A stretch of 34,077 nt of DNA from the NCBI GenBank assembly GCA_902774275.1, contig CACYHN010000016.1, positions 1-34,077 of the forward strand, written 5' to 3'. How positions within the stretch are numbered: position 1 is the stretch's first letter; the number at the start of each line of letters is the position of its first letter. The notes beneath the pieces are model-generated. The model was not told the origin of the DNA. It searched no databases and worked only from the letters and a program-made list of their open reading frames with translations. This DNA comes from an uncultured Bacteroidales bacterium (lineage in GTDB: Bacteria > Bacteroidota > Bacteroidia > Bacteroidales > Bacteroidaceae). A program made the translations under genes and the position numbers. Positions 27,826-34,077 of the stretch are shown one piece after another.

Positions 27826-28530
27826 ATGTGGTTATTCTACTGTCCTGACATAAAGAGTGATATGGAACTGCCTCAGGAGGAGGCGGGGCATTGCCTGCGT
27901 GTGTTGCGCATGAAAGAGGGTGACAGCCTGCGCATTACAGACGGAAAGGGTTCGTTCTATAATGCGGTTATAAGTGCGGCACAGGGCAAAAGATGTATAG
28001 TCCATATCGAGAGTGAGGAGCATCAGGAGCCTTTGTGGAACGGACATCTGCATATTGCAATGGCTCCCACCAAACTGATGGACCGCAATGAATGGTTTGT
28101 GGAGAAGGCCGTTGAGATAGGTGTTGATGAGATTACATTCCTTAAGACAGAACACTCTGAGCGTGATGTCATCAAGATGGAACGCATAGAGAAGATAGCC
28201 GTATCGGCTATGAAACAGTCACAGAAGGCTACCCTCCCGGTCCTTAACGGAATGACCTCTTTCCGCACGTTTATAGAGAGTGGTTTGAGGGGTGACAAAT
28301 TTATTGCTCATTGTGAGCCTGGCAGTAAAGTGCTGTTGCAGGACGCCGTGGTTCCGGGGCATGATGCTGTCGTGCTGATAGGTCCGGAGGGTGATTTCAG
28401 CCCTGCTGAGATAGATATGGCTCTGAAAGCTGGTTTCAAGCCAATCTCATTGGGCCCGTCGCGCCTGCGTACTGAGACCGCCGCGCTTGTATCGGTACAT
28501 ATTATGAATCTGGCTGGACAGAAACGTTGA
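27826..28530 (+). CDS. rsmE: 16S rRNA (uracil-N3)-methyltransferase RsmE
   Basis: SPOUT-class enzyme that methylates N3 of U1498 in 16S rRNA. The 234-residue protein has an N-terminal PUA-like region with HCLRVLRMKEGD and the knot domain with AMAPTKLMDRNEWFVEKAVEIGV, LIGPEGDFSPAEID and the C-terminal LGPSRLRTETAAL that bind SAM. It starts 6 bp after the nuclease gene and its TGA overlaps the truA ATG. Confidence 0.96.
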   Translation: MWLFYCPDIKSDMELPQEEAGHCLRVLRMKEGDSLRITDGKGSFYNAVISAAQGKRCIVHIESEEHQEPLWNGHLHIAMAPTKLMDRNEWFVEKAVEIGVDEITFLKTEHSERDVIKMERIEKIAVSAMKQSQKATLPVLNGMTSFRTFIESGLRGDKFIAHCEPGSKVLLQDAVVPGHDAVVLIGPEGDFSPAEIDMALKAGFKPISLGPSRLRTETAALVSVHIMNLAGQKR

Positions 28531-29282
28531 TGAGATACTTTGCTGACATAGAGTTTGACGGTACTGCCTACAGCGGATGGCAGATTCAGCCGCATTCGCC
28601 TTCAGTGCAGCAGACCTTGGAGGAGGCTCTGGCTCTGTTCCTGCGCCAAAAGGTTGACGTGACCGGCGCCGGACGTACTGATGCCGGCGTTCATGCTGCC
28701 CAGATGATAGCGCATTTTGACCTGGAGGAATGTCAGGATTGTGAATGGATCAAGCATAAGCTTAACGGAATACTTCCGCCTGATATAGCTGTACACGGCG
28801 TTTATCCTGTCAGGCCCGATGCTCATGCCCGTTTTGATGCCGTTTCAAGGACATACAAATACTACGTGACACTTGACAAAAGCGCGTTCCAAAGAAACTA
28901 TTCCTGGTATCTGCTTAATGAGCCGGACTTTGAGCTGATGAACAGCGCGGCAAAGCTGTTGCTTTCAACAGTTGACTTTACCAGTTTCAGCAAGCTTCAT
29001 ACTGATACCAAGACCAATGACTGTCATGTTACGGAAGCCGGGTGGGAGAGAGTGTCTGACGTGCGATGGGTGTTTACTATCACGGCTGACCGTTTTCTCA
29101 GGAATATGGTACGCGCCATAGTGGGGACACTGATGGAGGTGGGGCGTCACCGTATGACTGTTGATGAGTTCAAATCCGTAATACTCAGTAAGGATCGCTG
29201 CCAGGCTGGCGACTCGGCTCCTGCTCAGGGGTTGTTCCTAAATAAGATAGAGTATCCTGATGACATTTATCTGAAAGACTGA
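28530..29282 (+). CDS. truA: tRNA pseudouridine(38-40) synthase TruA
   Basis: Converts U38, U39 and U40 in the tRNA anticodon stem to pseudouridine. The 250-residue protein shows IEFDGTAYSGWQ near the start, the catalytic motif GAGRTDAGVHA with Asp51, and FLRNMVRAIVGTLMEVGR near the end. I chose ATG 28530, which overlaps the rsmE stop (TGATG), over the in-frame TTG at 28527. It is followed after one base by the DUF3256 gene. Confidence 0.97.
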   Translation: MRYFADIEFDGTAYSGWQIQPHSPSVQQTLEEALALFLRQKVDVTGAGRTDAGVHAAQMIAHFDLEECQDCEWIKHKLNGILPPDIAVHGVYPVRPDAHARFDAVSRTYKYYVTLDKSAFQRNYSWYLLNEPDFELMNSAAKLLLSTVDFTSFSKLHTDTKTNDCHVTEAGWERVSDVRWVFTITADRFLRNMVRAIVGTLMEVGRHRMTVDEFKSVILSKDRCQAGDSAPAQGLFLNKIEYPDDIYLKD

Positions 29283-29283
29283 T

Positions 29284-29913
29284 ATGAAAAGAATTACTGT
29301 CATATTACTGCTGGTTCTTGGTTACACGATGGCAAGTGCGGCTGATTTGAGGACGTTGTTCATAAACATGCCTGATTCCATTATGCCTACTATCACCAAG
29401 AGTGAACGTATGGACTTTCTGGATTTCATGGACTATGGGATGAAAGCCGTAGTGAAAAACAGGCTGGGTGGTGAGTGTGAAATGACTGTACTGAAGGAAA
29501 ATATGCTTACTGTCAAGACTTCACAGTCAGGACAACTGGATATGGCGCTTTTCAGGAAGAAGGACGGCAAGAATCTTATCTGCATAGTGCGCACGGTAAC
29601 AGCCCGTTATCCTGATTCGCGCATAGTGTTCTATACAGAAGAGTGGAAGCCTGTTCCGATCAAGGGGTTGATTGAAATGCCTGAGTTTGATGACTATCTC
29701 ACCAAGGAGGCTCTTAAGGCTGACTCTTTGGATTATTTCAAGAAACTGTCCATGCTCAGGCTACAGTCTGTGACCCCTGTTGAAGGTGCGCTTGAGTTCC
29801 GTTACACCTCATTGGACTATATCGGTGAGGATGCGGAGCGCTACAAGACCTGGATCAAGCCTGAACCTCTGCGTTACACCTGGACCGGCAAACGCTTCAA
29901 AATGGTAAAATGA
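29284..29913 (+). CDS. DUF3256 family exported protein
   Basis: A 209-residue protein with a signal peptide (MKRITVILLLVLGYTMASA). The mature part begins ADLRTLFINMPDSIMPTIT and continues SERMDFLDFMDYGMKAVVKNRLGG, which fits the Bacteroidota family DUF3256 as I remember it, including its place beside truA. It is presumably periplasmic; no function is known and no catalytic motif is visible. It ends the operon, and its TGA stop (29911-29913) lies inside a REP-like palindrome. Confidence 0.75.
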   Translation: MKRITVILLLVLGYTMASAADLRTLFINMPDSIMPTITKSERMDFLDFMDYGMKAVVKNRLGGECEMTVLKENMLTVKTSQSGQLDMALFRKKDGKNLICIVRTVTARYPDSRIVFYTEEWKPVPIKGLIEMPEFDDYLTKEALKADSLDYFKKLSMLRLQSVTPVEGALEFRYTSLDYIGEDAERYKTWIKPEPLRYTWTGKRFKMVK

Positions 29914-29947
29914 TACAATTGGGGTCAGACCCCTTTTGTATCATTTT
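29907..29947. repeat. REP-like palindrome, copy 2
   Basis: Arms 29907-29926 and 29928-29947 are reverse complements except for two TT/TT positions, centred on A29927. The core is GGGGTCAGACCCC flanked by ATGATACAA / TTGTATCAT. The left arm supplies the stop codon of the DUF3256 gene. The T-run at its end could also help termination. Confidence 0.82.
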
Positions 29948-29958
29948 TGCGAAAAAAG

Positions 29959-29987
29959 AAAGGTTCGGATGCTTTGTCCGAACCTTT
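29959..29987. terminator. Terminator between DUF3256 and rpmE2
   Basis: AAAGGTTCGGA (29959-29969) and TCCGAACCTTT (29977-29987) are perfect 11-bp arms around a 7-nt loop, with an A-tract on the left and a short T-tract on the right. It lies between two REP-like copies and serves the convergent genes. Confidence 0.8.
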
Positions 29988-30000
29988 TATCTTGAAAACA

Positions 30001-30033
30001 GTACCAAAGGGGTCTGTCCCCAATGGTATCATT
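30001..30033. repeat. REP-like palindrome, copy 3
   Basis: On the minus strand it reads AATGATACCATTGGGGACAG followed by ACCCCTTTGGTAC. The arms pair with three internal mismatches, and the core is GGGGTCTGTCCCC on the plus strand. Its TGA is the stop codon of rpmE2 (complement of 30029-30031), the same relation as copy 2 has to DUF3256. Confidence 0.78.
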
Positions 30034-30286
30034 TGCCTCCGCGGCTCTTTGCGTAACGGCTCATGAACTTGTCCACGCGTCCTGCGGTATCTACCAGCTT
30101 TGACTTACCGGTAAAGAACGGGTGAGAAGTGTTTGAAATTTCAATCTTGATCAGGGGATAGGTCTGACCTTCAAACTCGATTGTCTCCTTGGTAGCGCAG
30201 GTAGAGCGTGACAGGAAGCAATCACCGTTTGACATGTCCTTGAATACTACAGGACGATAGCTCTCGGGATGAATACCTTTTTTCAT
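30029..30286 (-). CDS. rpmE2: 50S ribosomal protein L31 type B
   Basis: Large-subunit ribosomal protein. The 85-residue sequence starts [15 protein letters not shown] and ends with [24 protein letters not shown], the type B pattern. The two Cys (23 and 30) are not in the CxxC pairs of zinc-binding type A L31, so this is the zinc-independent form. It is a single-gene unit with its own promoter. Confidence 0.97.
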
Positions 30287-30364
30287 AACTTATTTTGTTT
30301 TTAATTACTCCATTAAATGTCCGCCGGAATATAAGCGGAACTATGCTATGGGGGTTTCAGCGCG

Positions 30365-30395
30365 CAAAGGTATGATTATTTGTTGTAATGGCAAA
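30365..30395 (-). promoter_or_regulatory. Promoter of rpmE2
   Basis: On the minus strand TTTG (30395-30392) and TACCTTTG (30372-30365) match the consensus with a 19-bp spacer. The leader of about 75 nt contains a small hairpin (TCCGC ... GCGGA) before a run of A and T. Confidence 0.7.
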
Positions 30396-30470
30396 ATGTT
30401 TGCGGGAGTTTTTGCGTGACATATACAAGCAGGCGATATAAATGCTAACTTAGCGGATATTGAATGTGTT

Positions 30471-31151
30471 ATGTCAGGAATTAGGGAGAGCATATATTCA
30501 AACCTTCTGTATGAGGACCGTTGGATGATGATGACTGACGGCCTGGTCAATACCCTGAAGGTCTCTTTGTGGTCAATCCTGCTCGCAACCTTAATGGGCG
30601 CACTCCTTTGTGCCATAAGAATGAGATCCCGGAACTGGGCCAAGACTTCAGTAAAATGGTATGTGGAGCTGATGCGTGCCATCCCGTTGCTGGTTTTGCT
30701 GCTGCTTTTGTTCTATGTGGTTCTGGCTGACGTGGCATTGTCTCCCTTATGGATCGCCATTGTATGTTTTACTCTCTATTTCAGCGCATATTTCTGTGAA
30801 ATATTCCGATCAGGCATAGAGGGGGTGAATCGTGGGCAGTGGGAGGCAGGTTTTGCGCTGGGACTCACCCCGTGGCGCACATTCATAAAAGTGATTCTGC
30901 CGCAAGCGTTGAAAAAGATAATCCCTGTCTATAAAGGTCAGATGGTAACATTGGTCAAGAGTACCTCAATTATAGGTTATGTGGCTATTGTGGATCTGAC
31001 CAAGGCCGGTGACCTTATCCGTTCACGTACTTTTGATGCGTTTTTCCCGCTGATTCTTGTGGCTGCGGTCTATCTCTTGCTTACATTGATTCTGGGAGCA
31101 TTGCTTGACCTGTTTGAGAAGAGAATCACCCCTAAAAGCCGTAAGATATGA
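30471..31151 (+). CDS. Amino-acid-type ABC transporter permease (HisM/GlnP family)
   Basis: A 226-residue inner-membrane permease of the polar amino acid class with about five TMs. The EAA loop that docks on the ATPase is clear: GQWEAGFALGLTPWRTFIKVILPQA. The N-terminal tail (MSGIRESIYSNLLYEDRW) is close to the linker that precedes the permease part of the next gene, so the two permeases are paralogues, with this one lacking a binding domain. Its stop overlaps the start of the next gene (ATGA at 31148-31151). No good promoter was found; TAACTTAG at 30446-30453 is a weak -7 candidate. Substrate is not determinable, likely a polar amino acid. Confidence 0.88.
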   Translation: MSGIRESIYSNLLYEDRWMMMTDGLVNTLKVSLWSILLATLMGALLCAIRMRSRNWAKTSVKWYVELMRAIPLLVLLLLLFYVVLADVALSPLWIAIVCFTLYFSAYFCEIFRSGIEGVNRGQWEAGFALGLTPWRTFIKVILPQALKKIIPVYKGQMVTLVKSTSIIGYVAIVDLTKAGDLIRSRTFDAFFPLILVAAVYLLLTLILGALLDLFEKRITPKSRKI

Positions 31152-32644
31152 GAAGATGGCACTTGATTATGATTGCGGCAATACTGTGTCTTGTTTCCTG
31201 TACCGGGCGCAAGGCTCATGACCTGTCAGGGGTAAACGGCGTTGAGGATCTTAAGGGGTACAGAGTGGCAGTGTCAATGGGCAGCTCTTATGATCTCATG
31301 CTTTCAGAGATTGACGGCGTTGATGTAATCAGGCTTGGAGTGGGTGAGCTTCTGGTGGCAGTGGAGAAGGGAAGGGCTGATTTCTGTATCATAGACCAGT
31401 TTCAGGCCAGAATGCTGAGCCTTGAATCTCGCGGTCTGGAAATAAAGTTCGACAATATACTTAAGGGAACTGCCTGCGCCGGATTCCGAAAGGATGATTC
31501 CCTGCTTTGCTCCCGGTTCAACGGTTATCTGAGAGACGCAAAGTCTTCAGGAGAGTATGACAGATGGCTCAATGAATGGAAAACGGCCTCTGATTCTATG
31601 GCCGATGCTTCATTGCTTGTCCATAGACATGAAAAACAATCCGGCAGAAGATCGCTTCACGTTGGAATTACCATTACCTATCCGTATCTGTTCCTCAAGG
31701 AAAATTATCTCACAGGTATAGAGGTGGATATGTTCAACAGGTTCTGTGATGCGGCCGGATATTCTGTGGATTATGAGATATATGATTTCAGCGCCCTTAT
31801 CCCTGCATTAAACTCCGGTAAGATCGATGTCATACTGTCTCACATGCGCAGGACGGAGGAGCGTGCCAGGCAAGTCCTTTTTTCTGATCCGTATGTAGAA
31901 GGTGGAGGCGCAGCCGTATGTAGGAGTAACGGTGGCATTGGCATGACTGAACGTGCCGGCTTGTGGGATCGCATTAAAGAGAGTTTCAAGAATAATCTGG
32001 TGGTGGAACAACGTTGGAAACTGATGGCAGACGGGCTGTGGGTGACCATTCAGATTTCAGTTCTCTCGTTATTGGCTGCGGTTATGGCAGGTGTGCTGAT
32101 GTGCAGAATGCGCATGAGCAGAAAACGGGTGGTAAGTTCACCTATGGGAATAGTGATTGACCTGTTGCGCGGAATCCCGTTGCTGGTTCTTCTGATGCTT
32201 ATGTTCTATGTGATATTCGCTTCATCCAGGATTACCGGAACCTGGGTTACAGTAATGAGTTTCGGGCTATATTATGGAGCATATTTCAGTGAGGTGTTCC
32301 GTACCGGAATGGAGGGTGTAGAGAGGGGGCAATGGGAGGCCGGGTTTGCCTTGGGATTAGGAAAATTCCAGACATTCCGCAAGGTTGTCCTGCCTCAGGC
32401 CCTGAACAGGATAATACCGGTATTGAAAGGCGAGGTGATAGCGCTTATAAAAATGACGTCGGTGGTAGGTTATGTGGCGGTGGTTGACTTGACCAAGGCG
32501 AGCGATATAATAAGGGCACGTACGCTTGATGCGTTCTTTCCGCTCATTCTTGTATCTGTGGTTTACATTGTTTTGTCATGGCTGACAGGCTGGGGACTTA
32601 ATGCTCTTGAAAGGCGGCTTACTCCAAAAAGCAGAGATTTATGA
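31148..32644 (+). CDS. Lipoprotein-anchored, circularly permuted binding protein fused to an amino-acid ABC permease
   Basis: A 498-residue chain. Residues 1-18 are a lipoprotein signal (lipobox LVSC, Cys18). Residues about 31-145 match the C-terminal part of an SBP_bac_3 binding protein (GVEDLKGYRVAVSMGSS ... SSGEYDRWLNEW). After a linker, residues about 169-262 match the N-terminal part (LHVGITITYPYLF ... SALIPALNSGKIDVILS ... VLFSDPYVEGGGAAV). So the two halves of one binding domain are in swapped order. From about residue 298 a HisM/GlnP-type permease follows with EAA loop QWEAGFALGLGKFQTFRKVVLPQA. The gene sits between a bare permease and the ATPase (ATPase ATG overlaps the stop). Each part is clear; the permuted reading is my inference from their order. 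Confidence 0.85.
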   Translation: MRRWHLIMIAAILCLVSCTGRKAHDLSGVNGVEDLKGYRVAVSMGSSYDLMLSEIDGVDVIRLGVGELLVAVEKGRADFCIIDQFQARMLSLESRGLEIKFDNILKGTACAGFRKDDSLLCSRFNGYLRDAKSSGEYDRWLNEWKTASDSMADASLLVHRHEKQSGRRSLHVGITITYPYLFLKENYLTGIEVDMFNRFCDAAGYSVDYEIYDFSALIPALNSGKIDVILSHMRRTEERARQVLFSDPYVEGGGAAVCRSNGGIGMTERAGLWDRIKESFKNNLVVEQRWKLMADGLWVTIQISVLSLLAAVMAGVLMCRMRMSRKRVVSSPMGIVIDLLRGIPLLVLLMLMFYVIFASSRITGTWVTVMSFGLYYGAYFSEVFRTGMEGVERGQWEAGFALGLGKFQTFRKVVLPQALNRIIPVLKGEVIALIKMTSVVGYVAVVDLTKASDIIRARTLDAFFPLILVSVVYIVLSWLTGWGLNALERRLTPKSRDL

Positions 32645-33726
32645 TTAAGGTAAAGCATCTTAAGAAAGTGTTCAGAACGCCAGGCGGTGATGAACTGACG
32701 GTGTTGAGGGATATAAACTGTGATATAGAGAAAGGTGAGGTGGTATCCATAATCGGCCCTTCCGGTACAGGTAAGAGTACACTGCTGCGTTGCCTGAATC
32801 GCTTGGAGGAGCCTACGTCGGGAGTGATTGAAGTGGACGGAACGGATATTCTGGACCGCAGGACCGATATAAGCCTCATCCGGCGCAGGATGGGTATGGT
32901 GTTCCAGAACTTCAACCTGTTTGAGCACCTTACAATTCTGGATAACCTTACCTTGTGTCCCATGACCCTGCTCGGGAAAAACCGTGAGGAGGCCGAAAAA
33001 AGGGGCATGGAGCTGCTTGGAATGGTGGGTCTTCATGACAAGGCGGGTTGCCTGCCGGGAGAACTGTCAGGCGGTCAGAAACAGCGTGCGGCAATAGCCC
33101 GCTGTCTGGCAATGGAACCTGAGATAATACTGTTTGATGAGCCTACATCGGCCTTGGACCCTACTATGGTAAGTGAAGTCCTTGCCGTTATCAGACATCT
33201 GGCAAACCAGGGGATGACCATGTGCATTGTGAGTCATGAGATGCAGTTCGTACGTGATGTGAGTACGCGGATCCTGTTCCTGAATGACGGCATCGTCTAT
33301 GAGGAGGGTACTCCTGAACAGATCTTTGAGAATCCCCGTAAACCTGCTACAAGGGCTTTCATAAACAGGATACGCTCTCTTGAGTCAGTATTTGAAAACA
33401 GATATTTTGACCTGTATGGGTTGTTTGGAAAAATCCATACATTCTGCAGCAAATACGGGCTCGGCACAAAGGTTACCGATAAGGTTGAGCATATAACAGA
33501 AGAGATGCTTTGCGGGATAATGCCGTTCGGCAGTCCTGTAAAGATGACATTGGAGTACAGTGAGAAAACATCCGGAATTACCATGTTTTTCCGTGAGGAG
33601 AATACTGAAGGCTGCATACTTGACGCTACAGGTGAGGATTCACTTTCACTCATGATGGTAAGGGGCATGAGCAGTTCCGTCACGGAACCGGAAAAGGGTA
33701 CTGTCTTTATAGAAATTCAAGGATGA
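32641..33726 (+). CDS. Amino-acid-type ABC transporter ATPase with HATPase-like C-terminal extension
   Basis: Residues 1-244 are a standard GlnQ/HisP-type ATPase: Walker A GPSGTGKST, Q-loop MVFQNFNLF, signature LSGGQKQRAAIARCL, Walker B IILFDEPTSALDP and switch His in CIVSHEM. The family is normally about 240 residues; this protein has 361. Residues about 245-361 resemble an RsbW/HATPase_c-type anti-sigma domain in order of segments: FGKIHTFCSKYGLGTKV, TEEMLCGIM where the N-box lies, then DSLSLMMVRGMSSSV near the end where GLGL-type motif is expected. The ATP-binding Asn and Gly residues are missing, so it is probably not an active kinase. It ends the three-gene transporter operon. ATPase role certain; extension identity tentative. 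Confidence 0.88.
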   Translation: MIKVKHLKKVFRTPGGDELTVLRDINCDIEKGEVVSIIGPSGTGKSTLLRCLNRLEEPTSGVIEVDGTDILDRRTDISLIRRRMGMVFQNFNLFEHLTILDNLTLCPMTLLGKNREEAEKRGMELLGMVGLHDKAGCLPGELSGGQKQRAAIARCLAMEPEIILFDEPTSALDPTMVSEVLAVIRHLANQGMTMCIVSHEMQFVRDVSTRILFLNDGIVYEEGTPEQIFENPRKPATRAFINRIRSLESVFENRYFDLYGLFGKIHTFCSKYGLGTKVTDKVEHITEEMLCGIMPFGSPVKMTLEYSEKTSGITMFFREENTEGCILDATGEDSLSLMMVRGMSSSVTEPEKGTVFIEIQG

Positions 33727-33776
33727 ACAGGTCTATATTGCAATGTCTTGTTAGCAGATTCCTGCACATGTGTTTA

Positions 33777-33799
33777 AACTTTGTGAAAGTTGACTGTTT
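33777..33799 (+). terminator. Weak terminator candidate after the transporter operon
   Basis: AACTTT-GTG-AAAGTT (33777-33791) is a short A/T-rich hairpin, followed after GACTG by a run of six or more T. The stem is weak, so efficiency is doubtful. Confidence 0.35.
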
Positions 33800-33814
33800 T
33801 TTAATCTATACTTT

Positions 33815-33844
33815 TTTGATAGCTTATCAAAGAATGTAATTTTG
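33815..33844 (+). promoter_or_regulatory. Promoter of fba with an overlapping palindrome
   Basis: TTTG (33815-33818) and TAATTTTG (33837-33844) match the consensus boxes with an 18-bp spacer, slightly short. TTTGATA-GCT-TATCAAA (33815-33831) is a perfect 7-bp-arm palindrome covering the -33 box and most of the spacer, a good position for an operator. The leader would be about 50 nt. Confidence 0.6.
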
Positions 33845-33898
33845 TGTCCGATTTCTGGAAACAGAGTTTATTAATTAATCACATAATAATTTCAATTT

Positions 33899-34077
33899 AT
33901 GGTAAGCTACAAAGAACTGGGTCTTGTAAACACCCGCGCAATGTTTGCCGCAGCCGTCAAGGGCGGATATGCTATCCCGGCATTCAATTTCAACACTATG
34001 GAGCAGATGCAGGCTATCGTACAGGCTGCAGTCGAGACCAAGTCACCGGTTATCATGCAGGTATCTAAGGGTGCCCG
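33899..34077 (+). CDS. fba: Class II fructose-bisphosphate aldolase, N-terminal part (partial)
   Basis: The first 59 codons are in the window and the frame stays open to the right edge. The start MVSYKELGLVNTRAMFAAAV, then GYAIPAFNFNTMEQMQAIVQAA and SPVIMQVSKGA are the usual N-terminus of the zinc-dependent class II aldolase of Bacteroidota, which cleaves fructose 1,6-bisphosphate to glyceraldehyde 3-phosphate and dihydroxyacetone phosphate. The zinc-binding His residues and active site lie beyond the window. It has its own promoter at 33815-33844. Confidence 0.93.
   Translation, partial: MVSYKELGLVNTRAMFAAAVKGGYAIPAFNFNTMEQMQAIVQAAVETKSPVIMQVSKGA

Follow-up and report, generated by a model that had tools for sequence, protein, structure and literature searches.

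The window analysed here, a stretch of 34,077 nucleotides from an uncultured Bacteroidales bacterium, contains a gene whose product joins a family-3 substrate-binding domain to an ABC permease with the two halves of the binding domain in reversed order, and the question that it raises is whether these halves form one circularly permuted domain or are what remains of two. In the following, B denotes lobe II plus the C-terminal part, which is normally the second half of a family-3 binding domain, F the start of lobe I, P a permease and A an ATPase. The gene is as a sequence-only reading had described it: the 498-codon frame, the lipobox LVSC and Cys18 are all found in the sequence (Table 1). Its product is very probably a fused subunit of a polar-amino-acid ABC importer that carries a naturally occurring, circularly permuted binding domain of family 3 (cluster F, type II).

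The importer operon and the order of the two halves

The fused gene shares its first bases with the end of a permease gene and its last bases with the start of an ATPase gene, so the three genes form one compact importer operon. The separate permease (BPD_transp_1 of Pfam, 94.5 bits) is a paralogue of the fused permease, with 52% identity to that protein's residues 273-497. The fused permease passes the cut-offs for the PAAT/HEQRo type (HEQRo_perm_3TM 71 versus 42.2 bits, BPD_transp_1 79.5 versus 26.4 bits), and the partner ATPase gene that such a permease needs is present in the operon (32641-33726); the GlnQ model matches this ATPase over residues 1-244 with 282 bits, under its cut-off of 379. 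The ATPase gene follows in homologous loci too, and the operon order P-BFP-A recurs in L032 and L034-L037, with P and BFP fused in L033. In the host genome, which is 78% complete, the window protein is the sole SBP_bac_3 match at E up to 0.01.

Table 1. Features of the importer operon, in coordinates of the window
Feature	Coordinates	Strand	Basis or remark
Separate ABC permease, 226 aa	30471..31151	+	First operon gene; overlaps next start codon
Fused binding-domain and permease protein, 498 aa, ATG start	31148-32644	+	ORF list, translation
Lipoprotein-type signal peptide, lipobox LVSC, Cys18 predicted as lipidation site	31148..31201	+	Sequence; most homologues carry a comparable motif
B half, residues 29-145: lobe II and final lobe-I segment	31232..31582	+	TIGR01096 123-249/250; canonical profile 117-235/258
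Closure linker, residues 146-168, old C-terminus to old N-terminus	31583..31651	+	Spacing in homologues; model pLDDT
F half, residues 169-262: lobe I start, carries TEER (Arg239) and FSDPY	31652..31933	+	TIGR01096 24-119/250; SBP_bac_3 1-93/132
Fused ABC permease, residues 291-498	32018..32641	+	BPD_transp_1 2-183/184; HEQRo_perm_3TM above cut-off
ABC ATPase, 361 aa, C-terminal extension of about 115 residues	32641..33726	+	ABC_tran 127.3 bits; GlnQ model 282 bits

In the fused protein a lipoprotein-type signal is followed by B (residues about 29-145), F (about 168-262) and the permease. Scanned as a whole, the protein passes the gathering cut-off of SBP_bac_3 (Pfam, 132 positions; 87.7 versus 26.4 bits); scanned as separate fragments, residues 19-156 match model positions 90-130 (16.7 bits, short of that cut-off) and residues 157-281 match positions 1-93 (76.5 bits). 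TIGR01096 (NCBIfam, 250 positions) matches residues 29-144 at positions 123-249 (18.2 bits, E 0.0014) and residues 168-261 at positions 24-119 (54.3 bits, E 1.3e-14), so that B and F together cover the whole family-3 domain. The sequence-only reading had taken the halves to be swapped, a view that would have failed if both fragments had matched the same part of the model; they match different, complementary parts. B alone appears as a weak match to the public models; against a profile of nine canonical sequences (258 positions, the Monoglobus control left out) it matches positions 117-235 with an E of 2.1e-9.

One continuous match after doubling of the query is the mark of circular permutation. 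The doubled query gave a single unbroken best stretch against TIGR01096 (137-365 at model positions 16-249, in a total of 138.5 bits that includes the outer halves), where the single copy gave pieces. Against the canonical profile, the window domain matched in two pieces of 24.6 and 60.7 bits and, when doubled, continuously over positions 8-238 of 258 with 88.9 bits; a free B-F protein (L100) gave 62.0 and 82.9 bits and 160.9 bits doubled, and a Selenomonas protein described below gave 23.3 and 7.5 bits and 28.5 bits doubled. The canonical Monoglobus protein, used as a control, matched as one domain of 179.3 bits and, when doubled, as two complete domains of 176.1 bits each. Since the order is B then F and not the canonical F then B, the window protein is, on these matches, filed as a permuted derivative of SBP_bac_3 (cluster F) and not as a canonical member. 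The swapped order explains why such proteins appear as fragmentary domain-model matches.

The structure prediction that had been proposed as a check, made with AlphaFold2 for residues 23-281 from a 36-row alignment of the same family, has a mean pLDDT of 89.1 and a pTM of 0.82, and B and F are predicted as one confident domain, not as two complete ones. The only weak interior stretch lies at the closure linker between B and F (pLDDT 69 in model block 121-130 and 57 in block 131-140, together residues 143-162 of the window protein), and the C-terminal tail is also weak (54, 60). Foldseek, which respects chain order, matched 375 chains to the model at E up to 0.001, and among the best 50 of these the superposition is poor (TMq 0.36-0.43, TMt at most 0.52), most of them being ATP phosphoribosyltransferases at an rmsd of 7-12. 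The binding proteins 4h1x and 4g4p are among the matches with a TMq of 0.43; a canonical domain would be expected to score far higher.

A family of permuted binding domains

The window protein as a query has matches in 19 of 61 genomes searched, and a 36-row profile at a threshold of 1e-15 has matches in 65 of 395 genomes sampled across the phylum (own genome included in both counts). By reading of the hit table, 43 of the 395, in families f1, f41, f42 and f59, have collinear B-F hits over both halves, and the remaining 22 of the 65 match with one half at a time only. The sequence-only reading, which had suggested such a survey, treated the swapped domain as a single case; its homologues make up a modular family. 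Architectures were assigned by module profiles to 106 permuted unique ORFs (BFP 40, BF 37, BFBFP 6, BFPA 6, BFBFBFP 5, PBFA 5, BFBF 4, PBFP 1, PBF 1, BFBP 1) and 11 canonical ones (FBP 5, FB 6), many of them close orthologues; the loci were fetched with B-F queries and the ratio of permuted to canonical ORFs is not a prevalence, and locus ends truncate part of the ORFs (BFBF, BFBP, PBF and a few more). Judged by these profiles, the permuted domain is modular, occurring in free lipoproteins (free B-F ORFs have 256-291 aa), in BFP, BFBFP and BFBFBFP proteins and in chains with the ATPase.

Six loci (L040, L048, L049, L050, L051, L061) encode a whole importer in one chain of 888-919 aa with the order BF-P-A. 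In a genome of family f41, a 941-aa ORF (L109, 1135-3957) begins with a binding domain in canonical F-B order; we guess that this protein is possibly a sensor.

Plasmid records were searched by tblastn with two queries, the window protein (2361 records) and a tandem BFBF stretch (1893 records), and five hits were opened: H10, H2 and H21 among the 25 listed of the former and H46 and H50 among the 40 listed of the latter. The one permuted case among the five, H10, lies outside the phylum, on plasmid pSRC1 of Selenomonas ruminantium, where a free B-F protein (SELR_RS16275, annotated as a transporter substrate-binding domain-containing protein) is encoded beside a permease and an ATPase and matches the profile collinearly over residues 33-233 of 245 (E 1.5e-18). 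On three plasmids taken together, 11 profile matches comprise one collinear B-F match, eight that make up four F-then-B pairs and two single halves. Two Rhizobium plasmid hits that were collinear in tblastn turned out to have canonical F-B order, with a permease-ATPase gene behind the F-B gene, so order in tblastn alone is no proof of permutation. With a free B-F protein as query, 1332 plasmid records were matched, each of the 20 matches listed being in two pieces, and a search with the Selenomonas protein gave 11 further records, all at residues 180-270 only. No relatives were found by tblastn in viral contigs with the window protein or the free B-F protein.

The tandem members permit the question of which halves belong together. 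The linker from B to F has a median of 21 residues and a range of 16-25 in 126 units, whether the domain is alone or in a row. The alternative is that a tandem is a staggered array of canonical F1-B2 pairs, with the outermost B and F left over; in its favour, the spacer from F to B has 12-24 residues (21 cases), only a little more than the gap of 8 residues in six of 11 canonical proteins (13, 27, 27, 119 and 120 in the others). When the double domain of L106 was modelled with AlphaFold2 (16 rows), the B-F linkers had pLDDT 84-93, whereas values below 50, counted in segments from three residues upward, were confined to the F1-B2 junction (234-243) and the C-terminal end; the pTM of 0.52 is as expected for two independent domains. 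The best Foldseek chains for the tandem presumably follow the F1-B2 order (4zv1, 34% identical over 236 columns), as a staggered array would have it, yet the best 50 reach a TMt of at most 0.52 at an rmsd of 11.6-20.5, which we read as a model in which F1 and B2 are not packed together. Among 12 adjacent pairs, taken from 14 tandem proteins after reduction at a similarity ratio of 0.85, distances between F halves correlate at 0.92 with those of their own B and at 0.51 with those of the next B; agreement of nearest neighbours is weaker evidence, at just 7/12 for the own B versus 4/12 for the next. Staggering, which cannot explain the window protein with its single B and single F, is therefore highly improbable, and the sequences and the model both point to B-F as the unit in tandems.

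It is also conceivable that B and F are two degraded binding domains, either remnants or halves that complement each other between two chains by a domain swap in a dimeric transporter. ABC importers have two permease copies and two chains could stand side by side, B alone is weakly matched, and the closure linker through which a single chain would have to close is the least confident interior part of the model. Nonetheless, this alternative is very unlikely in view of the confident monomer model, the free B-F lipoproteins and the narrow range of linker length over the 126 units, and remnants would not be expected to evolve as the two halves do: in seven pairs of close orthologues (some dS values saturated or undefined), dN/dS is 0.09-0.19 for B, 0.03-0.19 for F and 0.06-0.11 for the permease, versus up to 0.82 for the signal and up to 0.49 for the second linker, values that indicate purifying selection on both halves. 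An artefact of assembly or annotation might be suspected in a host genome that is fragmented and incomplete, but it is refuted by homologues with the same B-F order, in other assemblies at 42-95% identity and in a named plasmid record, and its probability is negligible. The profiles, the doubled queries, the structure model and the homologues all support what the sequence-only reading had proposed, a circularly permuted domain that is opened where the chain crosses between the lobes and is fused to a permease.

Pocket, proposed double tether and proposed mechanism

The window protein has both residues of an amino-acid pocket, Arg239 and Asp83, which makes an amino-acid-like ligand likely; the labels of these residues (Arg of the TxxR motif, Asp of lobe II) follow LAO/HisJ, and the Asp is the contact to the ammonium group of the ligand. 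Across the family, 69 of 71 permuted units have the Arg and 70 have the Gly at the lobe II turn. The lobe II Asp is kept in only 34 of the 71, versus 10 of 11 canonical proteins, and other family members probably have changed ligand specificity.

The permuted chain would begin at the crossing between lobe I and lobe II, run through lobe II and the C-terminal segment of lobe I (B), pass through a closure linker of about 21 residues to the start of lobe I (F) and lead straight into the permease. For an engineered permutant of LAO-BP, it is reported that cutting a single inter-lobe linker leaves each lobe with one of the new termini (PMC5087393); with the cut at the inter-lobe crossing, the new termini should lie on different lobes here too. 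The lipoprotein signal (lipobox LVSC with Cys18 near the N-terminus) would export the binding domain, and Cys18 may be lipidated, in which case the domain would be held on the side of lobe II by the membrane and on the side of lobe I by the permease, each lobe having its own tether. Within one chain, B and F would fold into one domain, bind an amino acid between them (Arg239, Ser46/47, Asp83) and close on it; the ligand would then be handed to the permease pair (P0002/P0001) and the ATPase would drive import. The fused protein would thus be the binding-plus-permease subunit of a PAAT/HEQRo-type importer, and the permease and ATPase encoded next to it would be its partners.

By one rule, 97 of 106 permuted proteins (36 of the 37 free B-F lipoproteins) have a lipobox-type signal before their first B, versus 1 of 11 canonical ones before the domain, and in at least four of the nine permuted proteins missed by the rule the signal still ends in a Cys. 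These counts suggest a tether at both ends of the binding domain and link permutation with double tethering; they are not proof of the link, because the unique sequences include many close orthologues and are not independent.

In chains with P before BF (P-BF-ATPase in L041, L044, L045, L046 and L047, PBFP in L005/L062), an internal hydrophobic stretch and a lipobox-like Cys stand at the junction of permease and B. The Cys is found in six of seven unique ORFs of this kind, L060 being without it, and suggests possible cleavage of a polyprotein by lipoprotein signal peptidase.

A broader view, which we put forward as speculative and rather unlikely as a whole, is that permuted family-3 domains are a widespread natural class that serves Bacteroidota and at least one species of Bacillota as a module of their amino-acid importers, ranging from free lipoproteins through three-domain chains to single-chain transporters; with a lipid on lobe II and the permease on lobe I, ligand-driven closure would pull directly on the permease, and P-BF chains might be cut at the internal lipobox as processed polyproteins.

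Known systems, origin and neighbouring sequences

Two near parallels in one chain are canonical. GlnP/GlnPQ of Lactococcus lactis likewise has family-3 domains fused to a permease with a separate ATPase, and these domains are a tandem, SBD1-SBD2, on a flexible linker (PMC8025302). The domains of GlnP are F-B by their canonical structures, whereas those of the window family are B-F, up to three in a row and, in most cases, preceded by a lipobox-type signal. Canonical F-B-P fusions in other families of the phylum (L110, L111, L116, L117, L118) have the same three modules in one chain and an adjacent ATPase gene, but in the normal order, with a lipobox-type signal in 0/5 and an F-B gap of exactly 8 residues in 5/5. 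In ionotropic glutamate receptors (S1-pore-S2), the ligand-binding domain is family-3-like and opened between the lobes next to a membrane domain; there the pore stands between F and B, whereas the window protein has B before F and the permease after F.

Permutation as such has precedents. TpMglB-2 (Tp0684), a glucose-binding lipoprotein of Treponema pallidum, is also a natural circular permutant and probably membrane-tethered (PMC4990184), but it is a type I (cluster B) sugar binder with both termini in one lobe and an extra hinge crossing, and it differs from the binding domain described here in family and cut site; the sequence of the latter, being family 3, does not belong to its type Ic (cluster Bc). 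The engineered LAO-BP sensors are built from a cluster F protein that was cut in a single inter-lobe linker and closed by a flexible linker between its former termini, a design like that of the window family; the permutant is artificial, joined with (GGS)4 and not part of a transporter, and the sensor built on it bound lysine 36 times more weakly, for which its authors blame the permutation and the fused fluorescent proteins (PMC5087393). No report of a naturally permuted family-3 binding domain was found in the open-licence literature. Natural permutation thus being known from the cluster of TpMglB-2 and artificial permutation from LAO-BP, a natural family-3 case appears to be new, and at the level of sequence it is well supported. 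It is apparently the natural counterpart of what sensor engineers did to LAO-BP, kept by selection across genera, and the matched canonical (F-B-P) and permuted (B-F-P) transporters make the effect of chain order and tether position on Venus-flytrap closure and docking testable.

For phylogeny, 134 units were reduced at a similarity ratio of 0.85 to 82 (71 permuted and 11 canonical, the Selenomonas protein left out). A tree of concatenated B and F places all 71 permuted units in one clade versus the 11 canonical ones with a support of 0.93, and a tree of B only agrees weakly (0.72); a tree of F only, from the same 71 and 11 units, does not recover the permuted units as one clade. A single origin of the permuted domain is likely, although not settled, from these trees. 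The permuted form may plausibly have arisen by truncation of a tandem SBP-SBP-permease, an idea that fits the alignment of residues 95-252 with residues 172-322 of the GlnP tandem (6h30); none of the 11 canonical proteins examined is an FBFB-P chain.

The C-terminal extension of the ATPase (about 115 residues, 33373-33723 of the window) is common to the ATPases of the family, for which the profile has 346 positions. No Pfam family was found above chance in the extensions of three examples; by eye, we take the extension to resemble a degenerate GHKL/anti-sigma-like domain.

An Rfam scan of 28000-34077 gave no match. Just upstream of the importer operon, a small ORF on the minus strand (30029-30286) presumably, by eye, encodes a type B ribosomal protein L31. 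At 29907-30034 lies an intergenic inverted repeat with TTGGGGTCAGACCCCTTT-type cores. The TTGGGGTCAGACCCCTTT-type pattern, with at most one mismatch, has 32 copies in the host genome versus 0 for the reversed control and is a dispersed palindromic element; several of the 32 copies stand in facing pairs.
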